From a bacterium (lineage in GTDB: Bacteria; UBA9089; CG2-30-40-21; SBAY01): 9,375 bases of DNA. The position numbers and the translations under genes are program-made. Positions 803-7,463 of the stretch are shown here, in pieces. The DNA lies in contig JBFLYA010000147.1 of the NCBI GenBank assembly GCA_040757115.1, positions 1 to 9,375 of the forward strand, in the 5' to 3' direction. Each line of letters opens with the position of its first letter. Within the stretch, counting starts at the first letter, position 1. The notes under the pieces are model-generated. The model searched no databases and had not been told where the DNA came from. It saw nothing but the letters and a program-made list of their open reading frames with translations.

Positions 803-3800
803 AACTCAGAGGACAGCGGAATATTCTTTACTACTTTTACAGTTGATTACCAACCAGGCGGAACTACTACTCTAACCGCAACAGGGCTTAATTCCAATTT
901 AGTCGCTACGGCTACCTTTGTAACCATCACCCAGCCAACTACCGTTATTGAGCAAGAAGACTTCTGGAGATATACATATTCACCTAACTCTGGCTGGGAA
1001 ACATTAGGATATGATGACAGTAGTTGGAGTAAAGGCAGAGCTCCTTTCGGAAATCAGTCTGATGGTGATTGGATTCCTCATACAGATTGGCCTGCAGGGA
1101 CGACACTATACCTTAGAAAGTATATTGATTTACCTGCATCTGCTAAATTGACTATCTATACTGGCGTAGATAACGAAATCCATATCTATATAAATGGTGT
1201 TAATATTTTTAATGCCTCTGCTCATGGATTTACATATCGCTGGGAATATACATTTGACATTCCTAAAGGATATATAAACCCAGGAAGAAATGTAATTGCT
1301 GTGCAAGCAGTGGATTGGGGTGGCGCGACAGGATTTGATCTGAAGGCTATTGCTGAGGTCAATATACCTCCAATGGGTTCTATGGCAATTAGTTCTGTGC
1401 CTTCGGAGGCAAAAATTTACTCAGATGGAATGGATACAGGTAAACTCACTCCTGCTGTCTTGACCAATCTATCCACAGGTAGTCATCAAATTGTCTTAAC
1501 TAAGCCTTTGTATAACAATTGGGCTGAAACTGTTACTGTATCCTCGGGACAGACTACAGAAATAGATGTTCCTCTTAGACTTTCTCCAACAATTATCATT
1601 ACCCCTATTTCTGGTACTGTTGGAATTATAATCACAGTTACAGGTGAAAACTTTAGTCCAATTGAGGCAATTAGGATTGATTTTGGTCTGATTTCCTCAA
1701 TTACCATCGCCACTACTACTGCCTACGGCACCTTTGCCACTACTTTTACGGTATCTTCTCAACCAGCAGGAACCACTACTATTGTGGCTACTGGTCTAAC
1801 TTCCGGGTCAAAAGCCTATGCTACCTTCACGCTTACTACTCCACCGCAAGCAACACTGACTGTCCGCTTAGACCAGATTGATGCCGCTAAATTCCCCACT
1901 ATCGAATGCCATGTCCGTGTAACTCAAGGAACGACATCTATTGCAGGACTGACAGCGGATAATTTCCAATTAACCGAGCAGTCTGAATTAGAATCTATAC
2001 CGACCGTAGAGATAATCAGTGTCAGTGCAACTAATACTGGGGGTGTAGCTATTGCCCAGGTATTAGATAGAAGTGGTAGTATGCAAGGTCAGAAGATAAC
2101 CGATGCTAAAACCGCCGCTAATTCCCTTGTTGATATGATGCAACCTCTGGATAGAATGGCGATAGTCTCTTTTGCTTCAAATGTTACTGTTGACCAATCC
2201 TTTACCAGTAATCAATCTGCCTTACATACCGCTATCAACAACTTAGTTGCCGATGGAGGCACGGCTTTGTATGATGGCATATATATGGGAATAGGTCAAT
2301 GCACACAAGAAATCGGTGTTAAAGCAGTTATTGCTTTGACTGATGGTCAGGAAAATAGTAGTTCACATACTCAGCAACAGGTGATTGATTATGCTATTGC
2401 CAGTGCTGTGCCTGTTTATACCATTGGCTTAGGTGGTGATGTAGATGCAGGGATACTTACGCATATTGCCACATCTACCGGTGGCACATACCATTTTTCA
2501 CCAAACTCTACCCAGCTACAAGAGATATTTGCAGATATTAGAGAAGAGATAGAACAGCAGTATTTAGTTACTTATAATACTCATAACCCGAATTATGATG
2601 GCACACTGCGGAATGTAGTCATTACTGCGAGTTATAACTCTGCCATTGGCTCAGATTCGGGGACATATCGTGTAGATGAACCACCGAAAATTATCCGCAC
2701 CCCAGAAACTATTGCCTTAGGTTCACAAAGTCAACCTGCCAACCAACCACTAACTATCGCCGCAACCATTACTGATAATACCGCAGTTACTAATGCCACC
2801 TTATTCTATCGACATTCGGGAACACTAACCAGCTATTCTCAGCTGACTATGACTCATATAGGTAATAACCTGTATAAAACAACTATCCCAGCCGCAAGTG
2901 TTAATTACCCGGGCGTGGATTACTATATCACTGCCTCAGATGGTAGATTAGTCGCTTCAGACCCAAAGAACAATCCTGAAACCTACCCATATCAGATTGC
3001 GGTATATCCAAATGAAAAACCAGTGATTATACATACCCCTGTTTCTGGAGCGTTAATTAACTCATCAGTAACTATTACTGCCTATGCTACGGATACCACA
3101 GATTATATTACTTCGGTAACCTTATCCTATCGTATCAAGGGTTATGTGCTTTATGAGAATGTAGTTATGACTAAGGCAGGTAATACCTATACCGCTACCA
3201 TACCGGCGAATAAGATGACCTTTGCCGGGGTCGAATACTATATTGTCGCGATGGACAATTATGGTTTGCGGGCATATCACGGCACCGATGTTAATCCACA
3301 CTACATTCGTCCCAATGTTCCACCGAGTATAACTATTACCGCACCACCAGCACAAGGGGCTTATGCTACCAGTTCTTATACCATCGCCTGGGTAGATGCT
3401 GACCCGGATAATGATGCCCAAATATCACTCTACTATGATACCAATAACACTGGCTATGACGGCTCAACTATCACTACTGGACTTTCTGAAGATAGCAGTA
3501 TCAATAGCTATATCTGGGATATCTCAACTATCCCTGAAGGTAGTTACTACATCTATGCTAAGATAGATGATGGCACTAATACACCGGTCTATGACTACAG
3601 CAATGGACCATTAAATATTGATCATTCACTACCACGAGCAACCATTACTACCACCCCTGCGTCACCAATTACTGCTACTGGCACAGTCTATGTTATCTTA
3701 ACTGCCTCAGAAAAATTATCTGCCGTCTCACTGACATTTACTCCCTATGGTAAATCACCTATCTCTATACCGTTGACTACCACAGATTATATCACCTGGC

Positions 3801-6800
3801 AGGGTAATTTCCAGGTTACTCTTTATACTGGCGATGGGATAGGCACATTTAATTATACCTTGAAGGATTTATTCGGTGTTGCTTTTCCAGGCAGCCAAAC
3901 CCTGGAAATAGATGTTGCTGGTGTCATATTTACACAGTCGAATTATAGCTTCAATGTAGAAAAGGACTATAACCAGCAAGGATTGGTCAAGGTTAAGAAT
4001 ATTGATAATGAAGCACATCAATTTTCAGCTCAGACGCTTAATGTCCCTGAAGGGATAGCGGTAGATTTTATCGGTGATGGCTCTGTAGATAGTCCTATTA
4101 CCTTACAGCCTGGTGAAGAAAGAAATCTTATTCTATCCATACATACGCAATATGCCACCAAAACAAACTACTCATTACAAGGAACATTGACCAATGATGA
4201 AGGACTAATTTCGCATACGACAATAAATATTAATGTTCGGCTGCCCGAGGTTAGGTTTACGGTTAGTCTCATCAGTGAAGACCCAATGACATTAGCCAAA
4301 ACCTATAGAATTACCAATATAGGTGCTGACCCAATTCCGGATTTAACCATTGACCTGGGAACGCTTACAGATAAGGTTATTATGCATCCGCTACTCTATA
4401 CCATATATTTAGGGACACAGAGCTATGTTGAATTTAAGTTAGTGCCGATTATCAATGAGACTTTTACCGGGCTATCTGGCACCTGGAGTGTGAGTAGTGG
4501 GGATAAGGTGGTGGAGGTTCTTACTACCTGGCAGGTTACAGGGACGATATACAAGGTAACATTAAATCAGCCAAAACTCGTTTTTGACATTAGTTATCTC
4601 TATCAATATCAAGAGGGATATTATGTCTGGGTGCAATACTGCCCCAATCAACCACCACGCCGGGTATGGGTCGCAGACCCAAGGTTAATTAAGAGCATTG
4701 ACCCATTCTATATACCAACAGGATTTGGGACTGCCAATGTCCAAAGTGCAAACTTGAGTATGCATTTTAGTCAAGGAAATATTCAGGCTAATCGTGATAC
4801 CTATATTTATATAAATAATAATGAAGTGGGTAGATTACTAAATGTTAATCCGGAAGGGTATTATACATTTCCAGTTGTGCCAGAGTATTTTCTGTATCCC
4901 GACCCGTATGTTGGTAATCGCCGCAATGAGATAAATATGGAGACAAATATAAATACGGGGCACTTAGCCTGGGTAGGTAACTTTAGGGTGACCATACTCT
5001 TAGATAAGTTTGAGGTGTATGTTATTGCCACAAGTTCAGCGGCGGCTACGACTACTGCCTGGGCATTGCCTTATGTGCATCATAATTCTGAGCAATTATT
5101 TGTTAATATTACTCAGCCACCGGCTGGCTTTGAGTATAAGAAAGGCACTAAGGTGTTGATTAAAGCTGAGGTCAAGGATGAGCATGACCTCTTCCAGTGG
5201 CTGTGTAATGTTCAGGCAAGTTTTACTAATAGCACCTCAACTTTGAATTTATATGACGATGGCATGCATAATGATGCCGGTGTAAATGACGGTATTTATG
5301 CCAACTACTGGTATCCTGTAAGTGAAGGGACTGTTACTATCACTGTGGTTGCCAGTAACTGCAAAACACAGGCAACCGATACAGTTACCGGCACGATTAT
5401 TGGAAACCGAGCACCTACAGTAGATATACTTACACCAACAGAACTACAAACATTACAAGGAACTACCACTATCTCGTATCAAGCCACAGACCCAGATGGC
5501 GATAGTTTATACTTCTATATCTATTATAGTGCCTCTTCGATTGGTCCCTGGAATCTGTTCTACATCGGCGTAAATACCGCCTATCTCTGGAATACTAACA
5601 TCCTGGAAAATGGTATTTACTATATTCGGGTAGTAGCCAGTGACCCTAGCGGATTGACAGGCTCAGATACCGTCAAGGTAACTGTAAAGAATAAAAAACC
5701 AAAGATTAGAGTTAATCCTACTGCTGGCTCTCAATGTGCCTTAGTTACGGTTTATGGTGAAGACTTTGGTGCGACAGAGACGGTTCAGATTGACTTTGGG
5801 CTACATCTTAATATTACTACTGGCATGACTAATGCCGAAGGCTCATTTACTACCTATTTTACCGTTGATACCCAGGCTGTAGGCACTATCTCAGTTGTCG
5901 CTACAGGTATAAATTCACACCTGAGGGCCTCTGCAGATTTCACTATTACCGCAATACACTATATCAAAGGATATATTCGCTATGCGAATGGTGAAGGAAT
6001 TCCAGGCATCAAAGTCTATTTAATGAGCCCTATAGTAAATGATTGTTATATCACTTCTGCGGATGGTTATTATGAATTTAATAATTTACCTACAGGATAT
6101 TATCGCACCAGACCGTTCAAGGAGTGGTATACCTTTGAGCCGCCGGGTAGGGAATATTATCCTGTATTAAATGCCAGTTATGATAATCAGAATTACATCG
6201 GGACACCACAGAGGTATTATATTAAAGGTAGATGTAAGACAGAGGCAGATGAAGGGATAGGTGGAGTGCAGGTAGTTTTATCAGGTTCTGTGCAGGCAAC
6301 CTATACGACTAATGCCAGTGGATATTATGCCTTCTGGGATGTTCCGGGTGGCACATATACCATCACCCCTTATAGGCAATTCTATACCTTTGTTCCGGCA
6401 AATAGAATCCTTCCTAACATAGATTTCCATCAAGCAGGACAGGATTTTGTTGGCACATCTACAACTGTAGAAAGATATTATATCAAAGGAACTATCACGG
6501 ATATGAGTCATAATCCGTTAGCCGGGGTAAGGGTATATCTGTTAGGCACGATGGATAATGTTTTTATCACCAGAGCAGATGGTTATTATGAATTTAGCAA
6601 TCTTGTGCCAGGTTATTATCGAACCAGTCCGTGGAAACAAGGATATACCTTCAGACCATCTGGCAAAAGATATGAATACCTGTGTAGCCATTATGAGCAT
6701 CAAGACTTTGACGATGATGGTCCACCACAAGGAATTCAACCACCACCACCTACCAGTACACTCACATCGCTATTCTTTGTAGTAAAGGATAATGCAGGAA

Positions 6801-7393
6801 AAGGAATAGCAGGGGCACAGATTACACTGACGCCATTAAATGTAGAAAATGTAGTGAGGGTCTTCAGACCCGTTGGGGAAAACGCATCTAAAGATGCTCA
6901 CTACAGACCCGTCTCGGCTGGCATTATCACTGATGCAGATGGTATGGCAGATATTATCAAACCTATCTCAGAATTGTATGGCCACTATAAAATAGAGGTG
7001 GCAAAACCAGGCTATAACTGCGAAGCTCAGATGATTACTATTACCGAAGAGACGATAGCACTGGATATTCCTCTACTCCTACAGCCAATTATTTTACTCC
7101 CAACTGTAAATAAACTTTACCAGAATTACCCAAATCCATTCAATCCCAATCAGGAAGAAACACAGATTTCGTATGATTTAGCCGTGAATGCTCATATAGT
7201 CATTAAGATTTACAACATTGCTGGAGAATTAGTCAGGACATTAGAGGAAGATAAACTTGCTGGGTCAAATATTACTACCCTATGGAATGGTAGAAACGAT
7301 GATGGTGATATAGTTTCATCAGGCGTCTATTTCTATCAATTACATATTGGTGGAAGTGTAGTTGGGACTAAGAAGATATTAGTAATAAAATAG
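803..7393 (+). CDS. Giant multidomain surface protein (IPT, PEGA, VWA, Ig-like, carboxypeptidase-like repeats, FlgD/T9SS-type tail), 5'-truncated
   Basis: The frame is open from 803 (stop at 800-802) to TAG at 7391: 2196 codons. There is no ATG, GTG or TTG before TTG 1148, and 1148 lies inside a beta-sandwich domain, so no credible start exists; the real N-terminus and signal peptide are missing. Domains, counting codon 803 as residue 1: half IPT/TIG-like 6-46; galactose-binding-like 50-188; PEGA 190-261; IPT-like 262-347; VWA about 409-586 with full MIDAS (DRSGSM 422-427, T487, D514), followed by a 'QYLVTY' strand typical of VWFA-related proteins; Ig-like domains 627-1246, including DADPDND; an unrecognised domain 1247-1433; a choice-of-anchor-X-like domain 1434-1536 (DDG-H-ND--NDGIY); Ig-like 1537-1632 with DPDGD; IPT-like 1633-1716; three carboxypeptidase-regulatory-like repeats 1717-1976; a PPPP linker; a fourth such domain 1990-2094; FlgD-like/T9SS-type tail 2096-2196 with LYQNYPNPFNPN. 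It is probably an outer-surface adhesin or matrix protein; the ligand is unknown. It may be a non-expressed fragment. Confidence 0.85.
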   Translation, partial: NSEDSGIFFTTFTVDYQPGGTTTLTATGLNSNLVATATFVTITQPTTVIEQEDFWRYTYSPNSGWETLGYDDSSWSKGRAPFGNQSDGDWIPHTDWPAGTTLYLRKYIDLPASAKLTIYTGVDNEIHIYINGVNIFNASAHGFTYRWEYTFDIPKGYINPGRNVIAVQAVDWGGATGFDLKAIAEVNIPPMGSMAISSVPSEAKIYSDGMDTGKLTPAVLTNLSTGSHQIVLTKPLYNNWAETVTVSSGQTTEIDVPLRLSPTIIITPISGTVGIIITVTGENFSPIEAIRIDFGLISSITIATTTAYGTFATTFTVSSQPAGTTTIVATGLTSGSKAYATFTLTTPPQATLTVRLDQIDAAKFPTIECHVRVTQGTTSIAGLTADNFQLTEQSELESIPTVEIISVSATNTGGVAIAQVLDRSGSMQGQKITDAKTAANSLVDMMQPLDRMAIVSFASNVTVDQSFTSNQSALHTAINNLVADGGTALYDGIYMGIGQCTQEIGVKAVIALTDGQENSSSHTQQQVIDYAIASAVPVYTIGLGGDVDAGILTHIATSTGGTYHFSPNSTQLQEIFADIREEIEQQYLVTYNTHNPNYDGTLRNVVITASYNSAIGSDSGTYRVDEPPKIIRTPETIALGSQSQPANQPLTIAATITDNTAVTNATLFYRHSGTLTSYSQLTMTHIGNNLYKTTIPAASVNYPGVDYYITASDGRLVASDPKNNPETYPYQIAVYPNEKPVIIHTPVSGALINSSVTITAYATDTTDYITSVTLSYRIKGYVLYENVVMTKAGNTYTATIPANKMTFAGVEYYIVAMDNYGLRAYHGTDVNPHYIRPNVPPSITITAPPAQGAYATSSYTIAWVDADPDNDAQISLYYDTNNTGYDGSTITTGLSEDSSINSYIWDISTIPEGSYYIYAKIDDGTNTPVYDYSNGPLNIDHSLPRATITTTPASPITATGTVYVILTASEKLSAVSLTFTPYGKSPISIPLTTTDYITWQGNFQVTLYTGDGIGTFNYTLKDLFGVAFPGSQTLEIDVAGVIFTQSNYSFNVEKDYNQQGLVKVKNIDNEAHQFSAQTLNVPEGIAVDFIGDGSVDSPITLQPGEERNLILSIHTQYATKTNYSLQGTLTNDEGLISHTTININVRLPEVRFTVSLISEDPMTLAKTYRITNIGADPIPDLTIDLGTLTDKVIMHPLLYTIYLGTQSYVEFKLVPIINETFTGLSGTWSVSSGDKVVEVLTTWQVTGTIYKVTLNQPKLVFDISYLYQYQEGYYVWVQYCPNQPPRRVWVADPRLIKSIDPFYIPTGFGTANVQSANLSMHFSQGNIQANRDTYIYINNNEVGRLLNVNPEGYYTFPVVPEYFLYPDPYVGNRRNEINMETNINTGHLAWVGNFRVTILLDKFEVYVIATSSAAATTTAWALPYVHHNSEQLFVNITQPPAGFEYKKGTKVLIKAEVKDEHDLFQWLCNVQASFTNSTSTLNLYDDGMHNDAGVNDGIYANYWYPVSEGTVTITVVASNCKTQATDTVTGTIIGNRAPTVDILTPTELQTLQGTTTISYQATDPDGDSLYFYIYYSASSIGPWNLFYIGVNTAYLWNTNILENGIYYIRVVASDPSGLTGSDTVKVTVKNKKPKIRVNPTAGSQCALVTVYGEDFGATETVQIDFGLHLNITTGMTNAEGSFTTYFTVDTQAVGTISVVATGINSHLRASADFTITAIHYIKGYIRYANGEGIPGIKVYLMSPIVNDCYITSADGYYEFNNLPTGYYRTRPFKEWYTFEPPGREYYPVLNASYDNQNYIGTPQRYYIKGRCKTEADEGIGGVQVVLSGSVQATYTTNASGYYAFWDVPGGTYTITPYRQFYTFVPANRILPNIDFHQAGQDFVGTSTTVERYYIKGTITDMSHNPLAGVRVYLLGTMDNVFITRADGYYEFSNLVPGYYRTSPWKQGYTFRPSGKRYEYLCSHYEHQDFDDDGPPQGIQPPPPTSTLTSLFFVVKDNAGKGIAGAQITLTPLNVENVVRVFRPVGENASKDAHYRPVSAGIITDADGMADIIKPISELYGHYKIEVAKPGYNCEAQMITITEETIALDIPLLLQPIILLPTVNKLYQNYPNPFNPNQEETQISYDLAVNAHIVIKIYNIAGELVRTLEEDKLAGSNITTLWNGRNDDGDIVSSGVYFYQLHIGGSVVGTKKILVIK
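5951..6730 (+). repeat. Three carboxypeptidase-regulatory-like (transthyretin-fold) repeats in the large protein
   Basis: Repeats lie at about 5951-6205, 6206-6460 and 6461-6730, each near 85 codons. Each has the plan YIKG....G(I/L)(P/G/A)G(V/I)(K/Q/R)V.L......T.A.GYY.F..(L/V)..G.Y...P....Y.F.P. Units 1 and 3 are much closer to each other than to unit 2: they share GATGGTTATTATGAATTTA exactly (6062-6080 and 6578-6596) and the run GYYRT. Such repeats usually act as stalk or spacer domains on secreted proteins. Confidence 0.75.
6851..6904 (+). repeat. In-frame 54-bp nested palindromic element inside the large gene
   Basis: An outer perfect 8-bp inverted repeat, GTAGTGAG (6851-6858) and CTCACTAC (6897-6904), encloses two small hairpins: GGTCT-TC-AGACC (6859-6870; with flanking bases, 6-bp arms at 6858-6871) and GCATCT-AA-AGATGC (6884-6897). 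The whole is 54 bases, exactly 18 codons in frame, encoding VVRVFRPVGENASKDAHY. It sits where the fourth carboxypeptidase-like domain would be expected to run from TPLN straight to ITDADG, so the peptide looks like an added loop. CAGACCCGT occurs at 6866 and again just after the element at 6905. This resembles palindromic elements inserted in Rickettsia genes; its mobility here is inferred. Confidence 0.55.
7115..7390 (+). other. FlgD Ig-like / type IX-type C-terminal sorting domain of the large protein
   Basis: The last 92 codons begin with LYQNYPNPFNPN, then 'ISYDL', 'VVIKIYN.AGELVRTL'-type strands, 'GSNITTLWNGRNDDGDIVSSGVYFYQL' (described here only as a pattern) and end in KKILVIK. This is the classical plan of FlgD-like Ig tails and of T9SS type A sorting domains. 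In Bacteroidota such tails direct export by the type IX system and are removed or anchored at the cell surface. Whether this organism has a complete type IX system cannot be told from the window. Confidence 0.85.
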
Positions 7394-7463
7394 GACGCAG
7401 ATGTACAGGATTTACAGGATTTTTAAAAAATATTATCCTAATAATCTGCGAAAATCTGCGTCC
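7393..7463. repeat. Inverted dispersed-type repeat (GGACGCAGAT ... ATCTGCGTCC)
   Basis: Perfect 10-base arms at 7393-7402 and 7454-7463 enclose 51 bases. Inside are the direct pair TACAGGATT (7404-7412, 7414-7421 region), the direct pair AATCTGCG (7443-7450, 7453-7460), and a smaller inverted pair AGGAT (7416-7420) / ATCCT (7435-7439). The left arm starts on the last base of the large gene's stop codon. 'GACGCAGAT...ATCTGCGTC' is a style of intergenic palindrome seen in many uncultured bacteria (recollection). It could also fold at the 3' end of the mRNA and affect read-through into the next gene. Confidence 0.65.

Follow-up and report, generated by a model that had tools for sequence, protein, structure and literature searches.

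The closest described relatives of the element considered here are the GTAG-tagged REPs, which were reported in 2013 together with REPtrons and with intragenic GTAG and CGTC REPs (PMC3733652); the occurrence of GTAG REPs in frame within genes is thus already published. REPINs, which are inverted REP doublets linked to RAYTs, had been described in 2011 (PMC3116915), and a study of 2021 showed that TnpA_REP cleaves single-stranded REPs, the cleavage in Marinomonas being dependent on the GTAG tag and on positions in the loop (PMC8266576). The palindromic elements of Rickettsia are likewise short palindromes that lie in frame within protein genes, and two of them, RPE-4 and RPE-6, correspond to CGTC repeats (PMC3733652).

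The element at positions 6851-6904 of the window (the whole stretch of 9,375 nucleotides that was analyzed) is very probably a REPIN that lies within a gene and belongs to a GTAG-tagged REP family. It is a 54-nt nested palindrome with the sequence GTAGTGAGGGTCTTCAGACCCGTTGGGGAAAACGCATCTAAAGATGCTCACTAC that is read in frame within a long host gene, and the features to which the following paragraphs refer are these.

6851-6904, no strand assigned: probable REPIN of two head-to-head REP units, 54 nt, in frame, encoding the 18 residues VVRVFRPVGENASKDAHY
6851-6874, plus strand: G-arm REP unit, composed of the GTAG tag, TGA, the GGGTCTTCAGACCC hairpin and GTT
6875-6880, no strand assigned: GGGGAA spacer separating the 24-nt units (the 22-nt cores lie 10 nt apart)
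6881-6904, minus strand: C-arm REP unit, GTAGTGAGCATCTTTAGATGCGTT in the minus-strand reading
1148-7393, plus strand: host gene for a 2081-residue secreted-type multidomain protein, with a TTG start at 1148
6752-7120, plus strand: carboxypeptidase-regulatory-like beta-sandwich domain with the insert, a sub-threshold Pfam match that is better without the insert

The outer arms, GTAGTGAG and CTCACTAC (6851-6858 and 6897-6904), form a perfect repeat of 8 bp and enclose two exact hairpins, GGGTCT-TC-AGACCC at 6858-6871 and GCATCT-AA-AGATGC at 6884-6897, each with a 6-bp stem and a 2-nt loop. The nested arrangement described in a sequence-only reading of this DNA is therefore exact, and its length of 54 nt and its in-frame position are as that reading had given them. 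The same nucleotides constitute two head-to-head, GTAG-tagged units of 24 nt, GTAGTGAG-GGTCTTCAGACC-CGTT and an inverted GTAGTGAG-CATCTTTAGATG-CGTT. The suggestion that such a structure seldom arises by chance in coding sequence was borne out, in that a scan of the window for an 8-bp outer repeat around two 6-bp hairpins found it at 6851-6904 only and no such structure arose in 200 codon-shuffled versions of the gene. The three-way junction that had been proposed as the fold was dropped as the main structure, since the minimum-free-energy fold of the 54 nt is a single long hairpin both as RNA (−25.2 kcal/mol, z −5.8) and as DNA (−11.9, z −4.8); this hairpin is the most stable fold because the two REP units are nearly complementary to each other. 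The small hairpins are unit-level structures and are the ones that covary. There was no Rfam match in the window, and a search of a phage collection gave no match.

In the genome to which the window belongs (G000; 4.3 Mb in 462 contigs), related places were found on six other contigs, and the 24-nt unit GTAGTGAGNNTCTNNAGANNCGTT occurs 17 times at up to 2 mismatches, in genes and between them, as compared with 0 occurrences of a reversed-pattern control. These multicopy matches resolve the element into two head-to-head units, a G-arm with the stem GGGTCT and a C-arm with the stem GCATCT or GCACCT. The 22-nt pattern is present in 5 of 61 genomes, all of one order: the genome of the window, that of a congener and three others. 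Across 62 units, whose selection pattern included the GTAG tag, T5 and A6 are invariant and G4 and G7 are conserved in at least 90%. Neighboring units are inverted in 18 of 20 pairs, with the G-arm facing the C-arm, and in the remaining two pairs the G-arm is repeated in tandem, one case being an in-frame duplication in a paralog of the host gene on contig C6; single units and tandem half-copies are found as well, the GTAG tag being at one end. Eight of the 17 units in the genome of the window are inside genes (the window gene, its C6 paralog, and C25-peptidase-like genes on contigs C6 and C43). Matches to the REP model of the window family number 46 in genome G004 and 61 in genome G006, most of the units in these two genomes being outside long ORFs, which suggests that the REP family is not specialized for genes. 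Matches were also seen in contigs labeled WOR-3, Deltaproteobacteria and Omnitrophota, with a doublet in the Omnitrophota contig only. A second REPIN family is present in G000 and in the congener (G001), where 63-nt doublets (GTAGTGCGAGGCTTTAGCCTCGCT ... AGCGAACCTAAAGGTTCGCACTAC; for example, L220:1527-1589 and L244:1505-1567) occur in dozens of near-identical copies.

The pairing within the unit stems is preserved among the copies. Over 53 distinct units, 97.5% of cells in the stem are paired and 56 cells have changed on both sides (18.8 in shuffles), but it should be noted that the set was partly chosen by pairing (at least 5 of 6 stem pairs), which inflates both the percentage and the counts of paired changes. 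The stem covariation score is 0.485, compared with 0.197 in shuffles, and the signal collapses when the partner is slid by 1-3 columns. The main changes, G-C to C-G, G-C to A-T and T-A to C-G, are each found in at least 12 distinct units and are clear also in units that were first found by position-specific patterns allowing few mismatches. Thus the element is not a unique sequence drifting without regard to pairing but belongs to a multicopy, covarying family, and its membership in this REP family is established by sequence, structure and covariation. At the level of sequence, the window element has the characters of a GTAG REPIN.

A candidate mobilizer of these elements is encoded on contig C7 of the same genome (L010:1579-2043). 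The ORF matches the NF047646 REP_Tyr_transpos model at 92.6 bits (cutoff 80) and also PF01797, and its sole match among solved structures is E. coli TnpA_REP (4er8, E 0.00055). A REP of the window family ends about 30 nt 5' of its start codon, and degenerate units in inverted orientation lie downstream. The same REP-flanked arrangement is found on contig C9 of the congener, with intact downstream units and a RAYT that is 100% identical in protein sequence over 153 residues. Related genomes contain several further RAYTs that have different GTAG-tagged palindromes on their flanks, so that the lineage is rich in such systems. In G004 and G006, no RAYT closely flanked by a REP of the window family was found, and either another RAYT serves their many REPs or their own has been lost or was not assembled. 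In both species, the REP-flanked RAYT lies amid a 37-nt repeat (GTGCGAATAATAGACCTGATGAATAAGGGATTGCGAC) whose copies are spaced at 72-80 nt in the pattern of a CRISPR-like array, extending over about 1300-2210 of L010 (G000:C7) and about 1170-2222 of L169 (G001:C9).

The host protein contains PEGA, VWA and repeated CarboxypepD_reg domains and has an FlgD-like/T9SS type A sorting tail. When 27 residues (the 18 of the insert and nine flanking) were removed from the receiving domain, its weak, sub-threshold PF13620 score rose from 22.6 to 26.8 bits and a PF13715 match emerged. In an AlphaFold model of the domain, which was built on two sequences and has a mean pLDDT of 61.5, residues 32-54, spanning the insert (34-51), have pLDDT values below 50 and lie between beta strands. 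The proposal that the insert occupies a loop of a carboxypeptidase-like domain is therefore supported, but not strongly, the predicted position being a surface loop of the carboxypeptidase-regulatory-like beta-sandwich. The doublet is free of stop codons in only one of the three frames in each orientation, and survivors inside genes are consequently expected only in that frame, with frame-breaking insertions presumably purged by selection. Among the 61 genomes, the 113-residue domain with the insert had no ortholog match outside its own genome. The congener yielded no clean empty site for the window copy, as its contigs end about 70 nt before the position of the element and resume well past it. 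In the C6 paralog, the 54-mer is identical to that of the window, with 98% identity over the 150 nt upstream and 82% over the 120 nt immediately downstream, and the left half is repeated there in tandem and in frame as an additional 42 nt (14 residues). The host gene with its insert was probably duplicated later, giving this paralog. Directly 3' of the host gene's stop codon is a second nested palindrome (GGACGCAGAT ... ATCTGCGTCC, window positions 7393-7463), which has 55 matches in the same genome at E values up to 0.1.

Units of the family lie in frame in several other genes. The C25-peptidase-like genes on C6 and C43 each have a single in-frame unit (GYGSKDPHYFRAPKR) where five homologous copies of the gene have a different linker without the unit, and the C43 gene has a second in-frame unit farther upstream. 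About 100 nt past this upstream unit the C43 gene (L009, about position 640) contains a frameshift, which reflects a pseudogene or an assembly error. In comEC, G006 has two units within the DUF4131 region and G004 has one degenerate unit there, whereas the genes of G003, G000 and G002 have no unit at this site; a NUDIX gene of G006 also contains a C-arm, in its final 20 residues. Since the linkers at the C25 and ComEC sites are themselves variable, the exact boundaries of the insertions are unreadable. In the comEC of G005 (L198), another GTAG-tagged palindrome (GTAGGGACAGGTTCCAAACCTGTCC) occupies the same site and is likewise in frame, and in C25-like homologs (L152-L161; L012:4836-12605) the same variable linkers hold the repeat-like peptides SAIRNPQSAIQN, KSEIRNPKSKIKN and PESRAPSPESR.

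The repeats resemble the GTAG REPs of the 2013 study (PMC3733652) in having the tag at one end, a short stem and a small loop and in forming mostly head-to-head dimers, as well as in having a RAYT gene with the repeats on its flanks and some units in frame inside ORFs; the dimers of that study encode 20-30 amino acids, a further likeness to the coding doublet described here. They differ in that the repeat consists of GTAGTGAG and a 6-bp stem and comes from an uncultivated lineage, and in that the two arms of the doublet bear different, covarying stems. The hosts of the inserts are secreted multidomain proteins and ComEC, whereas genes of DNA repair and replication are prominent in the published list (PMC3733652). 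With the REPINs of Pseudomonas fluorescens SBW25 (PMC3116915) the element shares the inverted doublet with a spacer, the long hairpin of the single-stranded DNA and the link to a RAYT, but copies number tens here as opposed to about a thousand in SBW25, and several are intragenic, as compared with gene overlap for 14 of 1,067 of the most abundant 16-mers in SBW25. The Marinomonas REPtron Mb, which has a group 3 TnpA_REP, resembles the repeats in its short perfect stem close to GTAG and in its loop, which is TTTA there and TTTA or TTCA here (PMC8266576); the tag and the stem are separated by two bases there and by three here.

The sequence-only reading likened the element to the Rickettsia palindromic elements. 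The likeness holds for its manner of entering genes, several unrelated ones of which contain such a short palindrome in frame, but membership in the Rickettsia system is contradicted by the tag, which is GTAG here and CGTC in RPE-4 and RPE-6, and by the RAYT with the same repeats on its flanks, no transposase association being given for the CGTC repeats (PMC3733652). The sequences also differ, the REPIN doublets form part of the distinction, and the predominance of copies outside long ORFs in G006 and G004 argues against a family that specializes in genes; it is thus very unlikely that the element is part of that system, whether of the same family or of an independent gene-entering one. A MITE of a DDE transposase, with terminal inverted repeats and a target-site duplication, would also be short and non-autonomous with inverted repeats at its ends, but inspection by eye shows no duplication on the flanks of 6851-6904, and the single units and half-copies tagged at one end, as well as the REP-flanked RAYT, make this origin highly improbable. 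It is scarcely credible that the element is ordinary coding sequence with coincidental palindromes, as an open frame carried by both the host gene and its paralog might suggest, given the occurrence of the same units between genes and in unrelated genes, the compensatory changes in their stems and the lack of a comparable structure in the shuffled genes.

A further possibility, compatible with the REPIN reading, is that the peptide was recruited and is kept for a useful loop or an mRNA hairpin. The identity of the 54-mer in the two paralogs, relative to the lower identity just downstream, and the retention of REP-derived sequence by ComEC in two species are in keeping with this, but, given the high upstream identity, the unchanged 54-mer is accounted for by a recent duplication or by gene conversion, the C6 copy tolerates 14 additional residues, and the loop is disordered in the AlphaFold model. 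Recruitment is therefore improbable, and the peptide seems to be tolerated rather than useful.

On the reading of the element as an intragenic REPIN, the RAYT (TnpA_REP, an HUH/Y1 single-strand transposase) would recognize the GTAG tag and hairpin on single-stranded DNA and would move or copy the doublet as a non-autonomous element, and the insertion would have occurred by transposition. One doublet may have entered the host gene at the surface loop of the beta-sandwich, in the sole stop-free frame of its orientation, and as a result the protein would have gained about 18 residues while the gene stayed open. Duplication of the gene with its insert would have followed, with the addition of the tandem left half in the C6 paralog.

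With this locus, the known distribution of GTAG REP/RAYT systems extends to a further lineage, one that is uncultivated. The gene copies with and without units make up a small collection in which the tolerance of in-frame REP insertion can be studied, and the principle of the Rickettsia elements can now be compared with a system whose candidate mobilizer is of a known class. A broader proposal, which we consider tentative and rather doubtful, is that in this lineage new protein loops arise repeatedly from REPINs linked to RAYTs. If this is true, units would enter the linkers of secreted and membrane proteins in a frame without stop codons, be passed on by gene duplication and grow by in-frame duplication of half-units, and a single-strand transposition system would supply coding sequence.
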